Part shown: positions 1,367 through 55,638 of the stretch, one piece after another
How positions within the stretch are numbered: position 1 is the stretch's first letter
Layout of the letters: the number at the start of each line of letters is the position of its first letter
NCBI RefSeq assembly: GCF_016758195.1
Contig: NZ_QYAC01000001.1
Coordinates: 409,423 to 473,422, forward strand
DNA length: 64,000 bases
DNA from: Leucobacter chromiireducens subsp. solipictus
GTDB taxonomy: Bacteria; Actinomycetota; Actinomycetes; Actinomycetales; Microbacteriaceae
Reading direction: 5' to 3'
The notes under the pieces: generated by a model
What the model was told of the DNA's origin: nothing
Database searches by the model: none
The model's input: only the letters and a program-made list of their open reading frames with translations
Made by a program: the position numbers and the translations under genes

Positions 1367-2026
1367 CTATTCCCGCTCTTTGCGCTTAAAGAAGCGCACC
1401 TTCTCCGGCTTGCTCTCCGCGGGCGTCGCGTGACCCTTCATGAGTTCCGTGAGATCCTTCTCGATGAGCTGCTGGATCCGGCTGTCGCGCGCTTCCTGGT
1501 ACTCCTCGGAGTCCCCACCGCTGTAGTAGGGGTGCGTAGCGCGCTCCTTCAGCGAATCGCCAATCTCGTGCCACGCGAGATCGCGCGCCCGGAGGGCGGT
1601 CGCCTGCAACCCGGCCTCGTCAGCGGCCTTAGCGTGCAGCTCTTCGGCGACGCGCTCGTAGACCTCCTGACGGTGCCGCAGCGTGCGATTGTCGTCGTTG
1701 CCGTAGTCCGATTCGCTCCAAGAGCTGCGGCCCGTGTCCCGGATCTCGCCGCGCATCCGGGCGATGTGCTTGGCGTCGCGCTCGCGCTCGCGCGCGAGAT
1801 CCTCCGTCGCTTCGCGGACCATCTCCACGATCTGCGCCTCGTCGTAGTCGACGTGCTTCTGCAGGGCATTCATGATGATCGCGTTTTTCACCGTCATCCG
1901 GATCGCGACGTCGGCGACCAGGAGCCCCTGCTCCACGATCTCCTCCACCGGCGCCAGCACACGCTTCGGCAGTCGTCGCAGCGGGCGCGATCCGCCACGC
2001 TTGCGCTTCTTTGACCAGCCGAACAC
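1367..2026 (-). CDS. Conserved hypothetical protein, highly charged and helical
   Basis: 219 residues starting at a GTG (2026) behind a GAGAGGAG ribosome binding site; longer frames reach 2350 but have no supporting site and poor codon use. The N-terminus is basic (WSKKRKRGGSRPLRRLPKR), followed by a hydrophobic stretch (APVEEIVEQGLLVADVAIRM) and then a long E/D/R/K-rich helical region with coiled-coil character (ATEDLARERERDAKHIARM). The C-terminus is basic. No enzymatic motif is recognisable. It is monocistronic and faces away from the guanidinium export unit. I do not assign a function. Confidence 0.65.
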   Translation of the reverse strand: MFGWSKKRKRGGSRPLRRLPKRVLAPVEEIVEQGLLVADVAIRMTVKNAIIMNALQKHVDYDEAQIVEMVREATEDLARERERDAKHIARMRGEIRDTGRSSWSESDYGNDDNRTLRHRQEVYERVAEELHAKAADEAGLQATALRARDLAWHEIGDSLKERATHPYYSGGDSEEYQEARDSRIQQLIEKDLTELMKGHATPAESKPEKVRFFKRKERE

Positions 2027-2198
2027 CGTGCTCCTCTCGCGCGCCCGGGAGGGCACTCCCCCATTATCCCGGATTTCACGCCCGTTACGCAGTCCCCACT
2101 CCGGGCGAGTCTGTCGCCACCGTTCTCCTCGCATGGCATCCCGATGTGCGCTGGCTGGAACGGTGTGAGAAACTCCCAGACGACCCCGCACACGGGGT

Positions 2199-2235
2199 GC
2201 GGACGAGGGAGCAGTACCCGCACAGTGACGACTGC
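2199..2235 (+). promoter_or_regulatory. Guanidine-III riboswitch (ykkC-III class)
   Basis: Fifteen bases before the first SMR start codon. The RNA carries the conserved blocks of the class: GGACGAGG at 2201-2208, GTACCCG at 2214-2220 and CAGTGACGA at 2223-2231. Both helices of the pseudoknot form with window-specific pairs: GCGG 2199-2202 with CCGC 2218-2221, and GCAGT 2211-2215 with ACTGC 2231-2235. The class senses free guanidinium and usually turns on export or degradation genes by exposing the ribosome binding region. It sits almost on top of the start here, which fits translational control. Identified by eye against the published consensus as I remember it; not scored with a covariance model. 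Confidence 0.85.
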
Positions 2236-2249
2236 CAGAAAGCACCACC

Positions 2250-2570
2250 ATGACGCTTGCCTGGATCGTGCTGATCCTGAGCGGACTGCTCGAAGCGGTC
2301 TGGGCGACAGCGCTCGACGCCTCCCGCGGATTCCGGAGGCTCTGGCCCACCGTCGTCTTCGTCGTGAGCTACCTTGCGAGCATGCTCGGGCTCGCGTACG
2401 GCATGACCGAGATCGCCGTTGGCACGGCGTACGCGGTCTGGGTCGGGATCGGGGCGGTCCTCACCGCCGCCTGGGCGATGCTGACCCGGAAGGATCGGGC
2501 GACCGTGCTCCGGGTGGTGCTGCTGGCCGGGCTCATCGCCTGCGTCGTCGGCCTGAAGGTGGTGAGCTGA
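2250..2570 (+). CDS. SMR transporter subunit 1 (guanidinium exporter, Gdx-like)
   Basis: 106-residue protein with four transmembrane helices. The first helix has the essential glutamate in LLEAVWATALDASRGF, and helix 3 has GTAYAVWVGIGAV, the SMR signature. SMR proteins exchange cations for protons as antiparallel dimers. The WAxxLxxSxGF pattern after the glutamate is shared with Gdx-type guanidinium exporters rather than broad EmrE-type drug pumps. A guanidine-III riboswitch immediately upstream supports guanidinium as the substrate. The following gene encodes a second SMR protein two bases after the stop codon, so the working unit is probably a heterodimer like YkkCD. Confidence 0.9.
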   Translation: MTLAWIVLILSGLLEAVWATALDASRGFRRLWPTVVFVVSYLASMLGLAYGMTEIAVGTAYAVWVGIGAVLTAAWAMLTRKDRATVLRVVLLAGLIACVVGLKVVS

Positions 2571-2572
2571 TC

Positions 2573-2947
2573 ATGGCAGCACCGAGTCAGCGCAGCCCCA
2601 AGGTGGCGGGCACCCGACACTGGGTGGTGTTGCTCGCGAGCGCGGTCCTCGAAGCCGTGTGGGCGCTCGCCCTCAAGGAGTCCCAGGGATTCACCCAGCT
2701 CGGCCCCTCCGTCGTGTTCGCGATCACCAACCCGCTCAGCATGGTCGGGCTCGGCTATGCGATGCGGGGACTCCCGGTGAGCGTGGCCTACGCGATCTGG
2801 ACGGGCCTCGGTGCCGCGCTCACCGTTGGCGCGTCGATCCTGCTCGGGATGGAGGCTCCGTCGGTGCTCAAGCTCTGCTTCCTGGGCGGGATCGTCGCGT
2901 GCGTGATCGGGCTGAAGTTCGCGAAGGATCCCGCGGCGAGCGCCTAG
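2573..2947 (+). CDS. SMR transporter subunit 2 (guanidinium exporter, Gdx-like)
   Basis: 124 residues with four transmembrane helices, preceded by a polar N-terminal tail of about 14 residues. Helix 1 carries the catalytic glutamate in VLEAVWALALKESQGF, and helix 3 reads VAYAIWTGLGAAL. It starts two bases after the stop of the first SMR gene, with the GGTGGTGAG end of that gene acting as ribosome binding site, so the two are translated together. Paired SMR genes generally make obligate heterodimers in which each subunit takes a fixed orientation. The 180 bp after the stop hold no gene; they contain a short direct repeat GTCACGGCTGGGCGG. Confidence 0.9.
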   Translation: MAAPSQRSPKVAGTRHWVVLLASAVLEAVWALALKESQGFTQLGPSVVFAITNPLSMVGLGYAMRGLPVSVAYAIWTGLGAALTVGASILLGMEAPSVLKLCFLGGIVACVIGLKFAKDPAASA

Positions 2948-3128
2948 TGCGCGGCTGCCGCCGGGCGCGCGTCGCTCAAACGGCAGGAGATTCACGAAGT
3001 CCTAGGAGATGTTCTCCGGGAAACCGGACCTGGACGCAGGATCTCCGTGGTTTTGGTGGTCACGGCTGGGCGGGGGTCACGGCTGGGCGGCTGCACCTCG
3101 GGTACACTGCCAGGCCGGCACCAGACGC

Positions 3129-3824
3129 CTAGGCGAGGGGTGCGTCGAGGCCGTGGACGGACACCCACATCGAGGCCGCGGCGGCGGGCCCCAAACTCAC
3201 GGGGTCGGCCGAGCCGGCGACCCGCACAAGCACGGCCTCGGAGTACGGTTCGCCGGGCAGGACCTCAAGCTCCGCGTCGACCACGAGGCCTCGGCTCGCG
3301 AAGTACTGCAGCATGGCGGTGTCCGAGTCGGAGATTCGCTCCACCCGCACGCGCGCCGGGGCCTCGACCGCGGCGAGGATCACGGCGTCCGGCCGGTGCA
3401 CGCGGCCATCGGCGCTCGGGATCGGGTCGCCGTGCGGATCGCGGGTGGGATACCCGAGCGCCCGATCGACCCGGTTGATCAGTTCATCCGAGACCGCGTG
3501 TTCCAGCCGGTCGGCCTCCGCGTGCACCTCGTCCCACTCGTAGCCGAGCGCCTGCACCAGGAACGTCTCGAGGAGCCGGTGCCGCCGGATCATCGAGACC
3601 GCGTTCTCGCGGCCCGTGTCGGTCAGCGTTACGCTGCCGTACCGGGCGTGGCCGATCAGTTCCAGGTCGGAGAGTTTCCGCAGCGCGTCGGAGACCGTCG
3701 AGAGCCGCACCCCCGCGGACTCAGCGATCGCGGAGTTCGAGACAGGCGCGTCGGACCACTCCTGCAGCCCCCAGATGACCTTGAGGTAGTTCTGCATACT
3801 CGGGGAAAGATTGTCGACGCTCAC
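3129..3824 (-). CDS. DtxR/MntR family metal-dependent transcriptional regulator
   Basis: 231 residues with the three parts of long DtxR-type repressors. An N-terminal winged helix has SNSAIAESAGVRLSTVSDAL as its helix-turn-helix. A metal-binding dimerisation domain follows (RRHRLLETFLVQALGYEWDEVH, then EADRLEHAVSDELINRV, with DPHGDPIP). The C-terminal SH3/FeoA-like domain covers about residues 150-225. Proteins of this size bind Fe(II) or Mn(II) and repress uptake genes. The start is a GTG (3824); TATCCT lies six bases before it with no Shine-Dalgarno sequence, so the mRNA is probably leaderless. No metal transporter is adjacent, so the target genes and preferred metal are unknown. Confidence 0.9.
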   Translation of the reverse strand: MSVDNLSPSMQNYLKVIWGLQEWSDAPVSNSAIAESAGVRLSTVSDALRKLSDLELIGHARYGSVTLTDTGRENAVSMIRRHRLLETFLVQALGYEWDEVHAEADRLEHAVSDELINRVDRALGYPTRDPHGDPIPSADGRVHRPDAVILAAVEAPARVRVERISDSDTAMLQYFASRGLVVDAELEVLPGEPYSEAVLVRVAGSADPVSLGPAAAASMWVSVHGLDAPLA

Positions 3825-3903
3825 GCACTCAGGATAGCCTGCCCGCTGTGGCCGGGCCCGGGCAGATCCCCGTGATTCCGGGCGAGTTGCCCCTGCTCAG
3901 AAT

Positions 3904-3919
3904 GCTGAATCGATTTGGC
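3904..3919. promoter_or_regulatory. Putative LacI-family operator upstream of the prenyl synthase/lacI pair
   Basis: GCTGAATCGATTTGGC is an imperfect palindrome centred on CG. It resembles four other boxes at 7706, 7760, 9754 and 9797, which share a GAAACGNTT core. Its place before the operon that encodes the LacI-type regulator suggests autoregulation. It is the most divergent of the five. Confidence 0.45.
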
Positions 3920-3980
3920 ACACCGCTTCCGGCACCCCTACGCTGGAGGAATCCACCCCGAGGACGAGGAGAGCACCCGA

Positions 3981-5054
3981 ATGGCAGCCCCGCACCAGCC
4001 GCAGCTCCGCCCCGAACCGGCCCCCGGGATCCGGGACGCGGGGCGGCCACACACCGCGGACACCGCGAACACCGCGGCCGAGGTGGACGCGCTCCTCGCG
4101 GCGACGGTGCGCACCATGGCGGGAATCGTTTCGGACCGCGTGGCGCGCAGCCCCTGGGCGCAAGACAACCCCGCGGGGCTCCCGCCGTTGACCGGCGGCA
4201 AGTATGTCCGGGCGCGGGCGTTTCTCACGGCAGCGAGCGCGTACGGCGCCCTGCACCGCCCGGGCGCTCAGGACGCGCTCGTCGGGATCGCTGCCGCGCT
4301 CGAACTGCTCCACACCGCCTCGCTGGTGCACGACGACATCATCGACGCATCCTCCACGCGCCGCGGCGCGCCAGCCCTGCACCGGCTCACCAGCCCCGCC
4401 ACCGCGATCCTGGTGGGCGACCAGGTCTTTGCGCTCGCACTCGCACACAGCGCGCCGTACGGCGTGACCGTCACTGCCGCGCTCACCCGCGCATTTGCGG
4501 ACCTCTGCGAGGGTCAGCTGCTGGAGTCCGCGCTCCGCTGGGACGCGGATGCCCTCCCGGTACTCGAACGATACGGCTCCCTGAAGACGGGTGCCCTGTT
4601 CGGTGCCGCCTTCGAGCTTGCTGCGCATGTTGCCGGGCTTCCGGACCCCGAACAGCTCAGCGCGCGCGACGCCGGGATCCGGCTCGGCCTGGCCTTCCAG
4701 TTCGCCGATGACCTGCTCGACATCCACGGCGACCTTGCCGAGCTGGGCAAGGACCACGGTGCCGATCTGCGCAATGGCGTGCCCTCGTTCCCGCTGTGGC
4801 TGGCCTCGCAGCAGCTCGCGACGGAGGTCGGGCTCGCCCACCCCACCGACCTGGACGCGCTCGCCGCGACGGCAAGTTCGGCATCGATCGATGCCCGCAC
4901 CCGCACCCGCATTGCCGAGTTGGTCGCGGAGGCACGATCCTCGCTCCCCGCAGCACCGGATCCGGAGCTCCTCGAGGCAGCGATTCACGCGGTGGTCGCA
5001 GTTCCGCTCAGCGCTCCGGCCCCATCGACGACCACCGAATCCGAGGAATCATGA
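3981..5054 (+). CDS. Polyprenyl synthetase family protein
   Basis: 357-residue member of the all-helical trans-isoprenyl diphosphate synthases, which join isopentenyl diphosphate to an allylic primer in the cytoplasm. It has the GGKYVRAR opening, the first aspartate-rich motif HDDIIDAS followed by TRRG, GQLLE, and the second aspartate-rich motif FADDLLDIHGD. The start at 3981 has GAGGAG upstream; an ATG at 3915 lacks such a site. The stop codon overlaps the ATG of the LacI-type regulator (ATGA). Chain length cannot be decided from sequence alone. Coupling to a catabolic-type regulator is unusual; menaquinone side-chain or carotenoid synthesis would be the normal guesses, but no such genes are nearby. 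Confidence 0.85.
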   Translation: MAAPHQPQLRPEPAPGIRDAGRPHTADTANTAAEVDALLAATVRTMAGIVSDRVARSPWAQDNPAGLPPLTGGKYVRARAFLTAASAYGALHRPGAQDALVGIAAALELLHTASLVHDDIIDASSTRRGAPALHRLTSPATAILVGDQVFALALAHSAPYGVTVTAALTRAFADLCEGQLLESALRWDADALPVLERYGSLKTGALFGAAFELAAHVAGLPDPEQLSARDAGIRLGLAFQFADDLLDIHGDLAELGKDHGADLRNGVPSFPLWLASQQLATEVGLAHPTDLDALAATASSASIDARTRTRIAELVAEARSSLPAAPDPELLEAAIHAVVAVPLSAPAPSTTTESEES

Positions 5055-6079
5055 AGCAGCGTCGCACCACCATCAAGGACGTCGCTCACGAGGCGGGGGT
5101 CTCGATCGCCACGGCGTCGGAGGCGCTCAATGGCAAGGGGCGCGTCGCTGCGACAACCCGGCAACACGTGATCGACACGGCGGCTCGGCTCGGGTACACC
5201 GCGAACCGGCTCGCCAAGAACCTGAATGCGGGCCGCACCGGCTCCCTGGTGCTCTCGGTCTCGCCGATGTCCGCGAACACGACGGCGTCGGGAGTCCAGC
5301 CCGAGTGGGATATTGACTACTACTTCCGCGTCCTGAGCGGGGCGTCTGCGCACGCATTCCAGCGGGGCTTTCTGCTGTCCATGCTGCCGTCGAGCAGCCC
5401 GTCCCCCGCGTTTCTGTCGGCGGCGGATGGCCTGATCGTCGTCGACCCCAGCGAGAACGATCCGCTCGTCCGCGCCGCCACCGCGGCCGGTCTCGCGTGC
5501 GTGACGATCGGCCGCAACTGGGACGACCTCTCCTGGGTCGACAACGATTTCGCTGCGGGAACGCTGACGGCGCTGAGCCACCTGAGCGAGGTGCGCGCCG
5601 CACGCCCGGCGCTCTTCCTGAGCGAGACCAGTTCCTCCTACGTGCGCGATGAGCTCTCCGCCTACCTCGACTGGTGCTCATCTGCCGGGGTCGATCCGGT
5701 GATCCTGCGCTCCCCCGGCCCGCGCGTCGACGAGGCCGAGGCGACCATTCGCACGGCACTCGCCGCCCCGGATCGCCGCTTCGACGCGGTGGTCACGACG
5801 CTCGACACGCTGGCGCACGCGACCGAGCGCAGCGCGCAGGCGCTCGGGCTGCGCATTCCGGAGGATCTGCAGCTCGTGAGCCTCACCGATAGCCGTTCGC
5901 TCGACTACGGGCTGAACACGCCCGTCACCGCGCTCGACCTGCAGCCGATCCGCCTGGGCGAACTCGCCGTCGATCTCCTCCTGGCGGGGCTCGACGGCAC
6001 GGCGGAGCGCCGCCGAGAACTGGTCCCGACGGCGCTCACGGTGCGCGGTTCGACGCTGCAGCCGGGGCGCGCGGACTAG
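5051..6079 (+). CDS. LacI family transcriptional regulator
   Basis: 342 residues. Residues 7-26 form the LacI helix-turn-helix (TIKDVAHEAGVSIATASEAL), followed by a hinge (ANRLAKNLNAGRTGS) and a periplasmic-binding-protein-like ligand domain ending near GSTLQP. The ATG overlaps the stop of the polyprenyl synthetase gene. Downstream it meets the permease gene tail to tail with a 4-bp overlap of stop codons. Related palindromes at 3904, 7706, 7760, 9754 and 9797 fit its expected binding sites, so it probably represses its own operon, the permease, the C-N hydrolase and the ureohydrolase. The ligand is unknown; a guanidino compound, an amine or an amide is the reasonable guess from the neighbours. 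Confidence 0.9.
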   Translation: MKQRRTTIKDVAHEAGVSIATASEALNGKGRVAATTRQHVIDTAARLGYTANRLAKNLNAGRTGSLVLSVSPMSANTTASGVQPEWDIDYYFRVLSGASAHAFQRGFLLSMLPSSSPSPAFLSAADGLIVVDPSENDPLVRAATAAGLACVTIGRNWDDLSWVDNDFAAGTLTALSHLSEVRAARPALFLSETSSSYVRDELSAYLDWCSSAGVDPVILRSPGPRVDEAEATIRTALAAPDRRFDAVVTTLDTLAHATERSAQALGLRIPEDLQLVSLTDSRSLDYGLNTPVTALDLQPIRLGELAVDLLLAGLDGTAERRRELVPTALTVRGSTLQPGRAD

Positions 6080-7593
6080 CCGCGAGCCGCCGCGGACGAT
6101 GCCCGAGCGCGCGCACCGGGACGCTCCGCGTCATCCTCCGCATCGTCCTCGGATTCGTCGCGCTCGAAGACCACGATCGTGGATCCCGTGGTGGCGGCAT
6201 GGAGGCGCTTGCGATGCACCCAGCGTTCGACGATCACGCCCAGCACGCCGACCGCGGCGACGCCGATCACCGTGGACCAGTCGCTCGCCCACCCGGCACC
6301 GCTCTCGCGGGGCCACGCGACATTCACGATCTGGAACACGAGCCAGACGAGCGCGAGCAGACTCACCGTTTTCCCGGCGCGCCCGAGGAACAGGCTCGGG
6401 TCGTCGCTCCAGCGGCCGCGGATCCGAGCCACGGCGAGCCCCAGCACAGGGAACAGGAACGAGAGGAAGAACCCGACCGACGAGAAGGAGATGAGGGCCA
6501 TCTGGATCCCCTCGCTCTGGAACGGGATGAACAACAGCGCGGCGATGACCGCCGCGATGAGCACCGCGCGTCGGGGCAACCCGGTCTCCCCCGAAAGCTT
6601 CGTCAGGAACCGCGCGAACGGGAGCTCCCCGTTTCGCGCCGTCGCCCAGATGATGCGGGACACCGTGATCTGAATGGTCATCAGGCTCGCGGCGAACGCA
6701 ATGACGAAGAGGGCGAGAATGCCACGGAACACCGGTTCCGGGAACGTCGCGGCGATGATCGCCACGGCCGGATCGGCAGCGTTGTCCGGATCCTGCAGGA
6801 ACGCGTCGTTCGGGACGGCGAGGGTAAAGGCGAGGGTGCTGAGGAGCACGATTCCCATGATGGCGAAAAACGACACCACCATGGCTTTCGGCACGGCCTT
6901 CTTGGGGCGCTTCACCTCCTCGGCGATAGAGCTCGCGCTCTCAAATCCGATGGCAAAGTAGCTCGAGAAGGCGATGGCCATCACGAGGGGCGCGGCGAAG
7001 AACGCTCCGCGGTAGTCCCCGAGCGATTCGGGCGACAGATACTCGAGCCCCTGGTGCCGCTGGAAGAACAGCAGCCAGACCGCGACGCCGATGGATCCCA
7101 CGGCTTCCGCCACAATGACGGTGACCATCAGGATCTTGATGAAGACGCGGCCCGCGAGGTTCACGAGCGTGCTGAACACCAGCATCCCGACCGCGAACCA
7201 GGTGACGATCTCCGGACCTGCGGACGGCATGTCGAAGATGGGCGGGATCAGCACGGCACCGGCGTACGCCACGGCCGGAAGCGTGATGAGGAGCGTCCAA
7301 ATGTACGTCCACGAGGCGAACCAGCCGTAGCGGTGTCCGAGCAGTCGACGCGACCACTGGTAGATCCCGCCCGAGTCCGCCCACTTGGACGCGAGCATAC
7401 CGAGGGTGAGGACCACGATGAACTGGCCCGCGTACAGAATCAGCCCGCCCCAGATGAACGCCGGGCCCGAGGTCGCAAGCCCCACTCCGAGGACGCTGTA
7501 GACCGCCACGATCGGCGAGACGAAGGCAAATGCCACGGACAGGGCAGAGAACATGGTGAATTCACGTTTCATCACCGTCGGCGCCGTACTCAT
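6076..7593 (-). CDS. APC superfamily amino acid/polyamine permease
   Basis: 505-residue integral membrane protein with about 12 hydrophobic segments. It opens with SALSVAFAFVSPIVAVYSVLG, the discontinuous first helix of amino acid/polyamine/organocation transporters, then ADSGGIYQWSRRLLG and, in helix 6, AIGFESASSIAEEVKRPKKA. About 55 polar, acid-rich residues form a C-terminal cytoplasmic tail. The start has a GGGAG site six bases away. The gene diverges from the C-N hydrolase gene, and two LacI-type boxes lie between them (7706 and 7760). Substrate is inferred as a guanidino compound, polyamine or amino acid consumed by the neighbouring hydrolases. Confidence 0.88.
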   Translation of the reverse strand: MSTAPTVMKREFTMFSALSVAFAFVSPIVAVYSVLGVGLATSGPAFIWGGLILYAGQFIVVLTLGMLASKWADSGGIYQWSRRLLGHRYGWFASWTYIWTLLITLPAVAYAGAVLIPPIFDMPSAGPEIVTWFAVGMLVFSTLVNLAGRVFIKILMVTVIVAEAVGSIGVAVWLLFFQRHQGLEYLSPESLGDYRGAFFAAPLVMAIAFSSYFAIGFESASSIAEEVKRPKKAVPKAMVVSFFAIMGIVLLSTLAFTLAVPNDAFLQDPDNAADPAVAIIAATFPEPVFRGILALFVIAFAASLMTIQITVSRIIWATARNGELPFARFLTKLSGETGLPRRAVLIAAVIAALLFIPFQSEGIQMALISFSSVGFFLSFLFPVLGLAVARIRGRWSDDPSLFLGRAGKTVSLLALVWLVFQIVNVAWPRESGAGWASDWSTVIGVAAVGVLGVIVERWVHRKRLHAATTGSTIVVFERDESEDDAEDDAERPGARARASSAAARG

Positions 7594-7705
7594 AGAAACT
7601 CCCTTGCTTCACATCGGCGACGGGCGCGACACCCATTGGCGCGCCCGGAGGTGGATCGTCCGCGCCGGAGTGGCCCCCGTCGCGGTCGAGAGTCACGCTA
7701 CCCTG

Positions 7706-7774
7706 GCCGAAACGTTTTAGCAAGTGGCAAACTGGCCTGCTATCGCCTAGAGTCAGCTAGTGAAACGATTTGGC
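7706..7774. promoter_or_regulatory. Divergent promoter region with two LacI-type operator boxes
   Basis: Between the permease and C-N hydrolase starts lie GCCGAAACGTTTTAGC (7706-7721) and GTGAAACGATTTGGC (7760-7774). Their centres are about 53 bp apart, close to five helical turns. Both share the AAACGNTTT core with the boxes at 3904, 9754 and 9797. Paired sites between divergent genes would let one LacI-type protein control both directions. Confidence 0.55.
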
Positions 7775-7853
7775 ACTGTGCCCGGTCACCACCCCCAAAC
7801 TCGAGCGAGTCGCGCGCCCGTGCGCGGTCCGCCCGCCACACCCGAGGAGCCCC

Positions 7854-8654
7854 ATGCACCCCCGCACGCTGCACGTCACGGTGATCCAAGACGCGCCCCG
7901 GTCCCGCGACCTTGCCGAGAATCTCCGCCGAGTCACCGCGGCCCTCGCCGCGCACCCAGACACGGATCTCCTCCTGTTCCCGGAGCTGTTCCTCAGCGGG
8001 TATCAGACCACCGCGCTTGCGGAACTCGCGCTCACGCGCAACGACCCGCGAGTCCGTGCGCTCGCCGCGGCCTGCCGAAACGCGAACACCGCGCTCATCG
8101 TCGGCTGCATCGAGGCGGCCCCCGACGGCGCGTACGACGCGATGCTCGCCATCGATCGCGACGGATCCGTGCGCGAGATGGTGCGCAAGACTCACCTCTT
8201 CGGCACCGAACGCGACGCCTTCGCCGTCGGCGACACGCTCGCCTCGGTCACCCTCTGCGACGTGTCCGTCGGCATCGTCAACTGCTTCGAACTCGAGTTC
8301 CCCGAGGTCTCCCGCACACTCGCGCTCCGCGGCGCGCAACTCATCGCGGCGGGATCGGCCAACATGCACCCTTACGCGCTCGACCACCGCATTGCGGCCA
8401 CCGCTCGAGCGCTGGAGAACCGGGTTCCGGTCGCCTACGCAAACCGCATCGGCACCGAATCCGGGCACGCGTTCTGCGGCGGGAGCCGGATCGTCCTCCC
8501 GGACGGCGACACCCTCGCGGAACTGGATGCGGATGAGGCGGGATCCATCGCGGGCCAGCTCGCGATCGACACGCGCGGCACGAGCGCGACACCGGCCTCG
8601 ACCACCCCGACGGACATGCTCGCCCAGCGCAGGCCGGAACTCTACGCGCACTAG
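7854..8654 (+). CDS. Carbon-nitrogen hydrolase (nitrilase superfamily amidase)
   Basis: 266 residues with the complete nitrilase-superfamily triad: Glu44 in LLFPELFLSGY, Lys112 in VRKTHLF and Cys144 in GIVNCFELEFPEV. Enzymes with this triad in the small, single-domain form hydrolyse amides or N-carbamoyl amines rather than nitriles. The ATG at 7854 follows GAGGAG closely. It is divergent from the permease and convergent with the ureohydrolase, and all share LacI-type boxes. Two known pathways fit: 4-guanidinobutyramide amidase before guanidinobutyrase in the arginine oxidase route, or an N-carbamoylputrescine amidase. The sequence does not decide between them. Confidence 0.85.
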   Translation: MHPRTLHVTVIQDAPRSRDLAENLRRVTAALAAHPDTDLLLFPELFLSGYQTTALAELALTRNDPRVRALAAACRNANTALIVGCIEAAPDGAYDAMLAIDRDGSVREMVRKTHLFGTERDAFAVGDTLASVTLCDVSVGIVNCFELEFPEVSRTLALRGAQLIAAGSANMHPYALDHRIAATARALENRVPVAYANRIGTESGHAFCGGSRIVLPDGDTLAELDADEAGSIAGQLAIDTRGTSATPASTTPTDMLAQRRPELYAH

Positions 8655-8663
8655 CCCCCCGGC

Positions 8664-8712
8664 ACGCCTCGGCCCCACCCCGTCGTCACTGCACGGGGTG
8701 GGGCCGAGGCGT
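8664..8712. terminator. Bidirectional terminator hairpin
   Basis: A perfect 20-bp inverted repeat (ACGCCTCGGCCCCACCCCGT at 8664-8683 with its complement at 8693-8712) and a 9-base loop, placed between the convergent C-N hydrolase and ureohydrolase genes. It lacks a strong U-tract on either strand, as is common in high-GC actinobacteria. Confidence 0.8.
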
Positions 8713-8720
8713 CGACGGGG

Positions 8721-9710
8721 CTAGCCGATGTAAATGGGCTCGCTCGGCGATCCCGCGTGGAACGCGAGCGCTTCGAGGGCGAGCCGGCCCGCGATCAGCT
8801 GGGTGCGGGTGGAGTGATCCAGCGAGGGCGCGGGCTCCGCGATGTCCAGGCCGATGAGCCCGGCCGGGGAGATACCCCGGACGATCTCGAAGGCCTCCCG
8901 GATCGTCATGCCGCCCGGTGTCGGCGCGCAGGTGCCCGGCGCAAACGCGGCGTCGAGCGCGTCAATGTCGAAGGTCAGATAGAACCCCTCTTCGCCGACT
9001 CGCTCGAGGATCTGCTCGACGGCCCACGCCGTGCCCTTCGCCCAGATGTCCTCGAGCCAGATCACCCGGATGCCGTGGTCACGGCAGTACTGGAGCTCGG
9101 TCTTCGGATTCATCCAGCCGTTGATGCCCACGAGCACCATCTTTGCCGGGTCGTAGCCGTTGTCGACCGCGCGAGTGATCGTGCAGCAGTGGCTGAGCAG
9201 CTCACCGCCGACGTCCGGTGCGCTGTCGAGGTGGGTGTCGAACTGCACCCAGCCCGGGCTGGTCCCCGGCTTCTTGGCCGCGTTCCCGACCGGGATACTG
9301 ACCGAGTGGTCGCCGCCGAACACGACGGGGATTGCTCCGCCCGCAACGATCTCGGCGATGTCAGCCTCGACTCGCGCAAAGGTCTTCGGCGTATTCCCGA
9401 GCGCGACGTGGCAGTCGCCCCCGTCGAACAGCGGCAGGTGCTCGAAGAGATCGAAGCCGAAGGTGGCCTGGAAGTTGGTGTACTGCACCGACGTCTCGCG
9501 GATCGCGCGGGGGCCGTAGTTCGCCCCGCTCCGGCTGATCGTGGTCGCATCGAAGGGGAAGCCGTACACGACCGCCTTCGCCCCCGACGCCGCGATCGCC
9601 TCGCGCGTCAGCTCTACCCGAGGCACCCCCATAAAGGTGCCGCCCAAGCCGCCGTGCAGCAGCCCATTCCACATCGTCTCGTCCACCGATACCGACGTCT
9701 CTTCACTCAT
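8721..9710 (-). CDS. Agmatinase/guanidinobutyrase-family ureohydrolase
   Basis: 329-residue binuclear metal ureohydrolase that releases urea from a guanidino substrate. Metal ligands are all present: His135 in FGGDHS, Asp158/His160/Asp162 in FDTHLDS and Asp248/Asp250 in FDIDALD. Two small departures are DTHLD where DAHxD is usual and DALDAAFAPG where DxLDPxxAPG is usual. An N-terminal arm of about 45 residues (MWNGLLHGGLGGTFMGVP) precedes the fold. Candidates are agmatine, 4-guanidinobutyrate, guanidinopropionate or free guanidine; the adjacent amidase and permease favour a guanidino acid or amine taken up and used as a nitrogen source. Two LacI-type boxes lie upstream (9754, 9797). Not arginase, judging by the overall sequence. 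Confidence 0.88.
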   Translation of the reverse strand: MSEETSVSVDETMWNGLLHGGLGGTFMGVPRVELTREAIAASGAKAVVYGFPFDATTISRSGANYGPRAIRETSVQYTNFQATFGFDLFEHLPLFDGGDCHVALGNTPKTFARVEADIAEIVAGGAIPVVFGGDHSVSIPVGNAAKKPGTSPGWVQFDTHLDSAPDVGGELLSHCCTITRAVDNGYDPAKMVLVGINGWMNPKTELQYCRDHGIRVIWLEDIWAKGTAWAVEQILERVGEEGFYLTFDIDALDAAFAPGTCAPTPGGMTIREAFEIVRGISPAGLIGLDIAEPAPSLDHSTRTQLIAGRLALEALAFHAGSPSEPIYIG

Positions 9711-9753
9711 GGTTTCCTCATTTCACGTGTCTCGCGGCACACCGCGCATCATT

Positions 9754-9812
9754 GATGAAACGTTTTGGAGCGCCATTGCTCAGCAAGGGCTGCACTGCCG
9801 AAACGCTTCGGC
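9754..9812. promoter_or_regulatory. Two LacI-type operator boxes upstream of the ureohydrolase
   Basis: GATGAAACGTTTTGGA (9754-9769) and TGCCGAAACGCTTCGGCA (9795-9812) lie 44-102 bp before the ureohydrolase start. The second is a near-perfect 18-bp palindrome and the best of the five boxes in this region. Their centres are about 43 bp apart, near four helical turns. The remaining 200 bp up to 10012 hold no gene that I can support, only GC-rich low-complexity sequence with CCCCGGAAGAACTCC-like repeats. Confidence 0.6.
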
Positions 9813-10012
9813 AAGCGTAGCAAGAGGCACCCGGGAAAGTCCAGCCCGTCTCACTTCGGAGATGAGGCACGTCGCGAAACTCGCGCGAACATCGACGTCC
9901 GGAAGCCGCTCCCGCCTGGAAACCGCTCCCCGCCCCGGACCCCGCGCGGACGCGCGGAACTCGCCGCCCCGGAAGAACTCCCCGCCCGGGACGCCCCGCG
10001 GGCGGGCGAAAA

Positions 10013-11452
10013 CTATCCGTCGAGGATCCCGCGCAACCGCACGAGCGCGCGGTCAAACTCGGCGTCGTCGGGGCCACCCACGCCCAGCACCAGGCCGGCC
10101 AGGCCGGGCGTCCGGTCTCGCTGCTGCCAGTACCCCGCGAGGCCCTGCACCCCGAGCCCGGCCGCGTGCGCCGCCGCGAGCACCGCCGCCTCCCGCGCTG
10201 GGCCGTCGGCGCTCGTGAACTCGATCACCGTGTGGAGGCCGCCATCCATCGGGCGGACGCGCACCCCGCGCGCCGCGGCCAGGCGATCCGACACCGCGTC
10301 GCGTCGCGCCGCGTAGCGCCGCAACATCCGCGCGGTGTGCCGCCGCAGCTCTCCGCTCGCGAGGTAGTCGGCGAGCGCCGCCTGCACCACCCCGGACACG
10401 GGGCCGCCAAGCTCCCGCCGCAGCGGCTCGATCCGGGCACGCAGCCCGGCCGGCGCGAGCAGGTACCCCGCAGCCAGGCTCGGGGCCAGCGTGCGCGAAA
10501 ACGTGCCGAGCAGCACCACGGATCCCTGCGCCGGATCGTCGAGCGCCGCGAGCGTCGGCAGCGCGCTGCCCGTATAGCGCAGCTCCGAATCGAAGTCGTC
10601 CTCGATCACCACCACACCCGTGCGCCGCGCCCACGCGAGCAGCTCGCGCCGCCGCGGCAGCGGCAGCGAGCCTCCCAACGGGTACTGGTGACTCGGCGTG
10701 ACGATCACCGCGTCGAGCATGCCGCTCGGCAACCGGGCGGTGTCGAGGCCCTCCGCGTCCGTCGGCAGGGCCACGATCCGCGCGCCGTGCGCCTGCACCA
10801 CGCCCCGCAACGAAGGCAGTCCCGGATCCTCGACCCCCACGACCAGCTCTCGGCCCCGGCCGCCGCCGAGCGCCGCAAGCAACAGCCCCAGGCCGTCCCG
10901 GGTGCCGGCGGTGACCAACACGTCGCTCGCCGCGCGTGCGGTGCCACGCATGCGCCGCAGGTGCTCGGAGATCTCGTGCCGCAGCGCGGGGTCCCCGAGC
11001 GCGGGCGGTGCCACGTCGACCCGCCCCGCCGCGCTCCGCCAGGCGGTGCGCCAGGACGGACTCACGACGGTGTCGGTGATCGGTTGCCCGGGCGTGAGCG
11101 CCGCCGGGACGGCGACGGGTTCCGGCGCCGATGCGCCTGGCACCGCCGCGCGCGTGGCGGAGCTCGGTTCCACGAGCTCCAGCGCGGGGTTCACGCGCGT
11201 CCCCTGCCCGTGCGTGGCCACGAGATATCCCTCGGCGACGAGCTGCTCGTAGGCCACCACGACGACCCCCCGCGCGACCCCGAGCCGCCGCGCGAGCTCC
11301 CGCGTCGCGGGAACCGTTTCTCCGGGCCGGAGCGTGGCCGCGTCGATCGCTTCGCGCAGTGCGGCCGCGAGTTGCACGGTGAGCGGGGCCTCCGCGCCGC
11401 GGTCGAGGTGCACGGGGAACCCCGCAGTGCCGCCGCGTTCGAGCTCGGTCAT
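10013..11452 (-). CDS. MocR-type (GntR/aminotransferase-like) regulator lacking the PLP lysine
   Basis: 479 residues: a GntR winged helix at about 20-85 (PLTVQLAAALREAI, then VPATRELARRLGVARGVVVVAYEQL) joined to a fold-type I aminotransferase domain (about 130-479). The cofactor pocket shows TPSHQYPLGG and IEDDFDSELRY. The lysine that normally forms the Schiff base (GTFSK-LAP) is replaced: the sequence is GTFSRTLAPSLAAGY, with Arg320 (codon at 10493-10495). The ATG at 11452 overlaps the stop of the methyltransferase gene (ATGA), so translation is coupled. PdxR-like MocR proteins activate pyridoxal phosphate synthesis genes, but no pdxS/pdxT is nearby. How this one senses a ligand is unknown. 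Confidence 0.85.
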   Translation of the reverse strand: MTELERGGTAGFPVHLDRGAEAPLTVQLAAALREAIDAATLRPGETVPATRELARRLGVARGVVVVAYEQLVAEGYLVATHGQGTRVNPALELVEPSSATRAAVPGASAPEPVAVPAALTPGQPITDTVVSPSWRTAWRSAAGRVDVAPPALGDPALRHEISEHLRRMRGTARAASDVLVTAGTRDGLGLLLAALGGGRGRELVVGVEDPGLPSLRGVVQAHGARIVALPTDAEGLDTARLPSGMLDAVIVTPSHQYPLGGSLPLPRRRELLAWARRTGVVVIEDDFDSELRYTGSALPTLAALDDPAQGSVVLLGTFSRTLAPSLAAGYLLAPAGLRARIEPLRRELGGPVSGVVQAALADYLASGELRRHTARMLRRYAARRDAVSDRLAAARGVRVRPMDGGLHTVIEFTSADGPAREAAVLAAAHAAGLGVQGLAGYWQQRDRTPGLAGLVLGVGGPDDAEFDRALVRLRGILDG

Positions 11453-12297
11453 GCGAACCTCACGTCCTGATCCGCGAAGCGCTCGCGCATCACGTCGATT
11501 GCCTCGGGGTTGTCGTCGATCAGGACGAAGCGGCGATCGAGCTCCGCCGCGGCGGCCCCCGTCGTCCCGCTCCCGGCAAAGGCGTCGAGCACCCAGTCCC
11601 CCGGCCGCGACGAGGCCTGCACGATCCGGCGCAGGATCCCGACGGGCTTCTGCGTCGGATAGCCGGTGCGTTCGAGCCCCGTCGGCGAGACGATGGTGTG
11701 CCACCAGGTGTCCGTCGGGAGCTTGCCCCGCGCGGCCTGCTCGGGCGTCACCAGCCCGGGGGCCATGTACGGCTCGCGATCCACCGCCTCCGCATCGAAG
11801 TAGTAGAAGTCCGGCAGCTTCGCGTAGACCAGAATGTTGTCGTGCTTCGCGGGCCAGCGTCGCTTCGTCCGTGCCCCGTAGTCGTAGGCCCAGATGATCT
11901 CGTTGATGAAGCATTCCGGCCCGAACATCGCGTCGAGCAGCACTTTCGCGTAGTGCACTTCGCGGTAGTCGAGGTGCAGGTAGAGCAGTCCGTCCGGCGA
12001 CAGCACGCGCCACGCCTCTTCCAGCCGAGGCTCGAGAAAGTCCCAGTAGTCACGGAATCGGTCGTCATAGGCAAGCGTCATCTCGCGCGTCACGTCGTAG
12101 CCCTGTCCGCGGAACCCGAGTCGGCCGCCCTCTGCGCGCACCCCCGTCACCCGCTCGGCCTGCCGGGACCGGCCCGTGTTGAAGGGCGGATCGAGGTAGA
12201 CCGTTGCGAAGGCGCTCCCCGGCAGGCGCCGCAGGATCGGCAGATTGTCGCCCGCGTAGACCACGCTCGGGCCGTGGGGGTCCCAGGGTTCGCGCAT
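11449..12297 (-). CDS. Orphan DNA methyltransferase (N6-adenine/N4-cytosine, DPPF type)
   Basis: 282 residues. The catalytic motif IV, YLDPPFNTG, is at about 34-42 and the SAM-binding motif I, LDAFAGSGTTG, at about 237-247, so the order is that of beta-class amino-methyltransferases. A central region (YWDFLEPRLEEAWRVLSPDG, then LHLDYREVHYAK) is usual for the family, and YPTQKPVGIL precedes motif I. DPPF suggests N6-adenine or N4-cytosine methylation in DNA. No restriction endonuclease is adjacent, so it may be a solitary epigenetic methylase. TACGCT lies six bases before the ATG, giving a probable leaderless transcript that continues into the MocR gene. Confidence 0.87.
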   Translation of the reverse strand: MREPWDPHGPSVVYAGDNLPILRRLPGSAFATVYLDPPFNTGRSRQAERVTGVRAEGGRLGFRGQGYDVTREMTLAYDDRFRDYWDFLEPRLEEAWRVLSPDGLLYLHLDYREVHYAKVLLDAMFGPECFINEIIWAYDYGARTKRRWPAKHDNILVYAKLPDFYYFDAEAVDREPYMAPGLVTPEQAARGKLPTDTWWHTIVSPTGLERTGYPTQKPVGILRRIVQASSRPGDWVLDAFAGSGTTGAAAAELDRRFVLIDDNPEAIDVMRERFADQDVRFA

Positions 12298-55575: not shown

Positions 55576-55604
55576 GGCCCCGAGGCTCAGTGAGCCTCGG
55601 GGCC
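55576..55604. terminator. Terminator hairpin downstream of the DUF3117 gene
   Basis: GGCCCCGAGGCTCA (55576-55589) pairs with TGAGCCTCGGGGCC (55591-55604), 35 bp after the DUF3117 stop. The rest of 55314-55638 holds the phosphatase promoter region and no gene that I can support. It includes one TTGTCCACA at 55463-55471. Confidence 0.7.
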
Positions 55605-55638
55605 GAATCGTTTCCGGGCTGCATCCCGGTGACGGTGA

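Follow-up and report, generated by a model that had tools for sequence, protein, structure and literature searches.

Which compound does a compact gene set of Leucobacter chromiireducens subsp. solipictus break down, and how is the set controlled? The window that we analysed, a stretch of 64,000 nucleotides (contig C1:409423-473422 of a 3.54-Mb genome, here labelled G000), carries genes for a LacI-family regulator, an amine permease, a nitrilase-type amidase and an arginase/agmatinase-family ureohydrolase, together with five related palindromes, which the original prediction had taken for a local LacI regulon of guanidino-type catabolism. Our analysis indicates that they probably form a self-contained, substrate-inducible catabolic module, in which LacI would repress four promoters through the five palindromes and whose products would import a guanidino compound, release urea from it and remove an amide group. 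The gene calls agreed with the earlier ones, except that the "lacI operon" consists of pps followed by lacI, pps having been left out before. The genes are as follows:

3981..5054, + strand: pps, prenyl/polyprenyl diphosphate synthase (PF00348), first gene of the lacI operon, with the Asp-rich motifs DDIID and DDLLD
5051..6079, + strand: lacI, LacI-family regulator (helix-turn-helix PF00356 plus Peripla_BP_3)
6076..7593, - strand: apc, amino acid/amine permease (profile match to PF13520)
7854..8654, + strand: nit, carbon-nitrogen hydrolase (nitrilase superfamily amidase) with E44, K112 and C144
8721..9710, - strand: ureo, arginase/agmatinase-family ureohydrolase with intact metal-ligand positions

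The pps and lacI genes overlap in the ATGA at 5051-5054. Both domains of the lacI product scored above gathering (N-terminal helix-turn-helix PF00356, 49.2 bits; C-terminal, periplasmic-binding-like PF13377, 79.3 bits), identifying it by domain content as a predicted LacI-family transcription factor. Its sensor domain has LD where sugar-binding LacI proteins usually show ND, a difference not used here as evidence. The top NCBIfam match of apc was a urea-carboxylase-system permease at 166.6 bits, far under the cut-off of 740.45. A structure prediction with AlphaFold2 on 14 close orthologues reached a mean predicted local distance difference test score (pLDDT) of 56, too poor for a fold search.

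Five operator-like palindromes at the promoters of the gene set

Direct reading of the window showed five 18-bp palindromes with the consensus TGCCGAAACGNTTTGGCA, each with a central CpG:

3903-3920, + strand: putative operator upstream of pps-lacI, TGCTGAATCGATTTGGCA, 61-78 bp before pps
7705-7722, - strand: putative operator at the apc promoter, GGCCGAAACGTTTTAGCA, 112-129 bp before apc
7758-7775, + strand: putative operator at the nit promoter, TAGTGAAACGATTTGGCA, 79-96 bp before nit
9753-9770, - strand: putative second ureo operator, TGATGAAACGTTTTGGAG, weakest of the five, 43-60 bp before ureo and 43 bp from the first
9796-9813, - strand: putative first ureo operator, TGCCGAAACGCTTCGGCA, the more conserved ureo box, 86-103 bp before ureo

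The five related palindromes reported earlier are therefore real, and our coordinates lie within 1-2 bases of those first given. The literal core proposed for them, AAACGNTTT, was present in three of the five boxes (chance mean 0.18 per 64 kb) and absent from the other two.

We then assessed how often such sites occur elsewhere. At up to 3 mismatches to the consensus, four of the five boxes were recovered in the window as 5 strand-matches, against a chance mean of 0.11 with no shuffle reaching 5; the box at 9753 was missed by this pattern and recovered with a weight matrix. Over the whole genome, the same pattern returned these four boxes and two weak 3-mismatch sites, which is the level of the reversed-pattern control (likewise two, 1+1). 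A sequence-only model of 33 distinct related boxes, whose training set included the window boxes and for which 150 of 1198 first-look candidates were scored, found no genomic sites other than the five boxes at E ≤ 10 (as six strand-matches with E 0.046-0.59). With a matrix from 5 distinct mycobacterial sites, the five boxes ranked 1-5 in the window at 18.2-24.7 bits, followed by a site at 14.3; this is a cross-species check and not a blind one, because the mycobacterial sites had themselves been located with a window-derived matrix. Simulating 64 kb 100 times with a first-order Markov model gave 0.02 sites per window that scored at least as high as the fifth box; the best scores averaged 13.9, the largest being 21.7, above the two weakest boxes. 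The whole-genome scans proposed with the original prediction thus showed, for both the 3-mismatch pattern and the 33-box model, that the boxes are not frequent elsewhere, and on these sequence statistics the five boxes are not chance occurrences. The top site outside the predicted regulon for the mycobacterial matrix, GGCCGAATCGTTTCCGGG at 55601-55618, is probably a chance match, because its 14.3 bits are close to the simulated mean best score.

Promoter-like hexamers, read by eye from the sequence and the alignments, lie beside the boxes; a sigma-70 scanner returned no promoter at 2000-12000. Before pps, TTGGCA (3915-3920) and TACGCT (3939-3944) are separated by 18 bp, and the first of the two falls within the box at 3903-3920. 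On the minus strand before apc, the box overlaps TTGCTA (7723-7718) and part of the 17-bp spacer to TAGCGT (7700-7695), and the TTG and TA...T positions of this pair are invariant in the alignment. The nit box at 7758-7775 stands just 3' of TAGAGT (7748-7753), with TGGCAA at 7725-7730, and the first ureo box lies directly 3' of the -10-like TGCTACGCT (9822-9814, minus strand), where the alignment shows TGnTACGnT directly before the box. The hexamers beside the boxes are conserved across loci, and boxes that overlap or abut them would fit repression by occlusion.

Genes and boxes are inherited together

Among 54 Leucobacter genomes, a LacI orthologue was found in 12 including G000, the other 11 being 70-93% identical (E ≤ 1e-150). 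The ureohydrolase orthologue (87-97%) occurred in the same 12 genomes, where the next-best ureohydrolases were at most 37% identical; the alignment to that of Leucobacter sp. 7(1) was 97% identical. The two genes share one contig in 11 of the 12 and are split over two small contigs in G461. Across 398 evenly sampled family genomes, LacI at E ≤ 1e-45 was found, besides G000, in G430 of the same genus, in Ruicaihuangia caeni (G209, 66% identical) and in G141, where LacI is 35% identical and the other module genes are absent. The full five-gene set was present in five Mycolicibacterium/Mycobacterium loci (ureo 82-84%, lacI 74-75%, apc 79-81%, nit 59-62% and pps 45-47% identical). The ureo and apc genes evolve slowly, and nit and pps fast: compared with G459, ureo and apc are both 97% identical, nit 75% and pps 71%. 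G430 keeps LacI, ureohydrolase and permease without nit (locus L082), and pps is absent from G430 and G004.

The boxes followed the genes. We scored 18 module loci (12 Leucobacter, 1 Ruicaihuangia and 5 mycobacterial) with the window-derived matrix. The results showed a ureo-side box of at least 21.7 bits in all 18 and a pps/lacI-side box of at least 22.6 bits in 16 of the 17 loci covering that region, Ruicaihuangia having 15.5 bits. The two ureo boxes are spaced 42-44 bp apart in 12/12 Leucobacter loci, and the apc-nit pair 53-56 bp apart in 11/12. The exception is G430, which lacks nit; there apc follows about 0.2 kb behind ureo on the same strand with no box of at least 9 bits between them, which we count in favour of the regulon. 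Exact pattern matches fell at module loci only, among the matches listed for the 54 genus genomes. A looser scan at up to 2 mismatches was rejected as a module marker, since it matched in 54/54 genomes and cannot separate those with and without the module. Taken together, the sequence comparisons indicate that genes and boxes are inherited together.

In three of the five mycobacterial loci (L128, L130 and L131), the ergothioneine operon egtABCDE is found upstream of the five-gene module. No egt match was present on the L132 stretch or in the 1.7 kb upstream examined for L129, and given these two loci we treated the ergothioneine genes as an insertion place, not as part of the module.

Intact catalytic residues and more distant relatives

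The ureohydrolase matched PF00491 at 243.5 bits. Its di-metal ligand positions H135, D158, H160, D162, D248 and D250 are invariant in 12/12 aligned ureohydrolases, and E292 is also intact. The nit product matched PF00795 at 140.4 bits, with E44, K112 and C144 invariant in 11/11 aligned sequences, and reached no NCBIfam cut-off. Against solved structures, the ureohydrolase scored 161.9 bits with a guanidinobutyrase, 159 with a guanidine-hydrolase structure and 143-145 with agmatinases.

A scan of 396 phylum genomes gave five further, more distant ureohydrolases besides that of G000 (about 50-59% identity). In three of them (L143, L144 and L146), a LacI 35-38% identical to the window's is divergent from ureo-nit, and two related palindromes 35-37 bp apart lie between lacI and ureo. 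The transporter behind ureo-nit is an APC permease in L143 and L144 and a Pot-type ABC transporter in L146. On a Sulfitobacter plasmid, a C-N hydrolase and an ABC transporter accompany a 47% identical ureohydrolase, and on a Paracoccus plasmid a 50% identical one lies near an amidase and an ABC transporter; both plasmid loci have annotated helix-turn-helix regulators nearby and no LacI match. That ureohydrolase, amide hydrolase and transporter recur with different regulators and transporters is our chief argument for a guanidino substrate and an amide step, and sequence comparison indicates that this core is older than the Leucobacter module.

An aldehyde dehydrogenase gene is convergent to lacI in L143 and L144, two of the three distant loci with LacI. 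The L143 enzyme scored 515.4, just under the succinic-semialdehyde dehydrogenase cut-off of 521, and would suit an end step of the gamma-aminobutyrate (GABA) type; its gene adjoins prolyl isomerase and RNA helicase genes. These dehydrogenases give a weak hint of a semialdehyde end step.

Other genes were observed at the distant loci. In L147 (8265-13987), a permease (40% to apc) and two short-chain dehydrogenases are encoded between two ureohydrolases (50% and 34% identical to the window's), possibly another guanidino gene set. In L144 (13431-15359), an M24-peptidase/ectoine-hydrolase-like protein and a second C-N hydrolase are encoded downstream of ureo-nit-APC, and an Xaa-Pro peptidase family protein is likewise annotated at the Paracoccus plasmid locus.

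Proposed mechanism and its weak points

What the DNA itself shows is the boxes with their places and genomic rarity, their inheritance together with the genes, and the intact catalytic residues. From these we infer a model in which the LacI-family protein would bind the five 18-bp palindromes and repress, rather than activate, the putative pps-lacI, apc, nit and ureo promoters. The inducer would probably be the imported compound or a pathway intermediate. On induction, the APC permease would import a guanidino compound, the ureohydrolase would release urea and leave an amine, and the nitrilase-type amidase would take off an amide group, either from this compound or from one closely derived from it, with some role for pps also conceivable. 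A local, self-regulated LacI regulon over apc, nit, ureo and the lacI operon, as first suggested, is supported as a prediction, with boxes at its own and neighbouring promoters that are conserved and rare elsewhere.

Several observations weigh against this model. Among the operators, the second ureo box and the nit-side box were weak or absent (at most 12 bits) in the mycobacterial loci, where the alignment still shows a degenerate nit-side copy; the apc box was also weak in L131 (12.0 bits), and the second ureo box scored 11.4-14.5 bits in four Leucobacter loci. Two of the five distant relatives, L145 and L147, gave no LacI match (E ≤ 1e-3). No box of at least 9 bits preceded the aldehyde dehydrogenase genes of L143 and L144, and the L144 enzyme scored best with an alpha-ketoglutaric semialdehyde dehydrogenase model. 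In the chemistry, the amide step is not obligatory, because nit is missing in G430, and the near-equal structure scores do not choose among guanidinobutyrase, guanidine hydrolase and agmatinase. Among the 54 genus genomes, some of them incomplete, urease alpha was found in 1, which is not one of the 12 module carriers, the mycobacteria not being searched, so that urea would bring no obvious nitrogen gain in Leucobacter; carbon, amine nitrogen or detoxification is the likelier benefit there, judged from gene content. No GABA aminotransferase or arginine oxygenase occurred among the scanned locus proteins, the rest of the genome not being searched. The pps gene is without an explained place in the pathway, and the ureohydrolase passes the NCBIfam agmatinase equivalog TIGR01230 (190.3 over 174.3 bits).

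On balance, the genes present make it probable, as a class, that a guanidino compound is imported and hydrolysed with release of urea, and that an amide step is involved. The guanidino-type class proposed earlier therefore stands, whereas the specific route from 4-guanidinobutyramide to GABA is not established, given the near-equal scores, G430 without nit and urease alpha found in none of the 12 Leucobacter module genomes. As a single route, 4-guanidinobutyramide or a similar guanidino-amide, converted to a guanidino acid and then to an amino acid and urea, is the most likely, as one candidate.

Other substrates and regulators

The agmatinase match also favours a different substrate, agmatine, with the ureohydrolase an ordinary agmatinase and the amidase acting on something unrelated, and the Pot-type genes after ureo-nit in L146 are of a polyamine ABC type. 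We consider this unlikely. The agmatinase subfamily NF002564 was not reached (206.2 under 302), and the genome has two other ureohydrolase paralogues (about 31% identity). Relatives of about 50% identity and more have recurring motifs, namely HCC in 11/11 and, in most, DTHLD and PGTC-PTPGG or close variants. The recurring amide-hydrolase partner would be left unexplained under agmatine catabolism, N-carbamoylputrescine amidase being an enzyme of the alternative deiminase route.

A second alternative, rather improbable in our view, keeps the same regulon and takes guanidine or another small guanidinium as the substrate, tied to the neighbouring genes. A guanidine-III riboswitch match at 2179-2239 (31.0 bits under a gathering score of 36, E 0.0028, full length) stands directly before a pair of small multidrug resistance (SMR) genes at 2250-2947, which resemble guanidinium exporters. 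The SMR pair is on the same stretch in 9 of the 12 Leucobacter module loci. However, an SMR gene is present in 39/54 genus genomes and a riboswitch match (E ≤ 0.01) in 32/54, and the SMR pair adjoins mntR in many of them, with or without the LacI module, so that the adjacency is independent of the module in the genus. G458 and G459 have the module and no genomic SMR match at E ≤ 1e-20, and no box of at least 9 bits precedes the window SMR genes. For these reasons, we rejected the riboswitch and SMR pair as regulon members for the genus. The rejection is not closed, because in Ruicaihuangia caeni (L085, 6952-7739) the SMR pair lies right beside lacI with no mntR between, unlike in Leucobacter; this arrangement possibly reflects a functional link with guanidinium export.

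The ureohydrolase itself bears on guanidine as well. The guanidine-hydrolase structure (PDB 7esr/7oi1, named Probable agmatinase 2) is presumably Sll1077/GdmH, and it shares a GIxGWxxP segment with the window protein. They differ in that the window ureohydrolase has 329 residues compared with a 392-residue chain, and in that the Trp of the loop PGTGWPEPGG in 7esr is Ala in the window protein (PGTCAPTPGG) and its 82-97% orthologues, a marker chosen from our alignment, not a published one. The scan for nickel-chaperone genes covered the seven proteins encoded at 3129-11452, not the remaining genome, and found none; guanidine would offer no role for the amidase. Sll1077 was later reportedly shown to be a guanidine hydrolase. 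Its history is a warning against assigning a substrate by grouping. In PMC2242806 it had been proposed, from its grouping, as a 4-guanidinobutyrase.

Binding of the boxes by another regulator, or by several LacI paralogues sharing the sites, is very improbable. In its favour, the genome has eight LacI-family matches (E ≤ 0.001), seven besides this lacI, and LacI-family sites resemble each other. Against it, the boxes and this lacI go together in Leucobacter, Ruicaihuangia and mycobacteria, the operon of lacI itself has a box in front, and the 33-box model reported no other genomic site at E ≤ 10.

A prenyl diphosphate synthase in the regulator operon

The pps product matched PF00348 at 161.9 bits, with D118, D119, D122 and D243, D244, D247 invariant in 15/15 sequences, and its gene is one of four PF00348 genes in G000. 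In Leucobacter, Ruicaihuangia and mycobacteria, pps stands next to lacI and downstream of a box, which speaks for its importance; two of the 12 Leucobacter genomes do without it, which speaks against an essential part in the core. One speculative extension, for which we see a small chance, is a LacI that senses a guanidino compound (an inducer class other than sugars) and controls a transferable pathway, with this prenyl diphosphate synthase dedicated to it and functionally linked with the breakdown of guanidino-amides, as could be the case if the natural substrate or its product were isoprenoid-linked, such as a prenylated guanidine.

Beyond the module, a MocR-family regulator at window 10016-11452 exceeded the NCBIfam PdxR cut-off (415.2 vs 320 bits); in 9 of the 12 Leucobacter genomes its gene lies on the same stretch as the module.

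Relation to known systems and significance

LacI regulators are known mainly for sugars. The predicted module resembles the local, autoregulated LacI-family regulons surveyed in PMC4052901, with a helix-turn-helix and a sensor domain, an even-length palindrome with central CpG and boxes at its own operon and at transporter and enzyme neighbours; it differs from them in that its targets are guanidino/amide genes and a prenyl diphosphate synthase, not sugar catabolism. The main text of that survey has 0 occurrences of agmatin-, amidase and guanidin-. Among the matches listed from open-licence PMC papers, we found no described regulon of such composition, in line with the original prediction. These comparisons support, as a prediction, a local LacI-family regulon that is new and unusual in content, without amounting to a new kind of system.

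The best-scoring solved relative of the ureohydrolase is PDB 3nio, the guanidinobutyrase GbuA of Pseudomonas aeruginosa. The metal-ligand motifs align, whereas the active-site loops differ (DTHLDSAPDVGGE and PGTCAPTPGG here, DAHADVNDHMFGE and PGTGTPEIGG in GbuA), and unlike GbuA the window ureohydrolase is accompanied by an amidase and LacI. The metformin/dimethylguanidine hydrolases (MetCaCb; MefH/DmgH) are also of the ureohydrolase family (141.5 bits to subunit A). In PMC11399263 and PMC11271267, they are described as paired subunits with adjacent nickel-chaperone genes, unlike the single ureohydrolase gene here. For nit, the nitrilase-superfamily amidases PDB 5jqn and 3hkx scored best among solved relatives (86-87 bits) and have the E-K-C residues in common; nit differs in reaching no NCBIfam cut-off.

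The NCBIfam model would name this ureohydrolase an agmatinase, and its context is a reason to consider other guanidino substrates. A conserved LacI circuit around the ureohydrolase-amidase pair, with five boxes and one regulator, would offer a clean genetic handle on the function of this uncharacterised "agmatinase" clade. The presence of pps in the operon is a real puzzle, and its co-inheritance makes a role for it testable. If the prenyl-linked possibility were true, it would amount to an undescribed metabolic route common to Leucobacter, Ruicaihuangia and mycobacteria.

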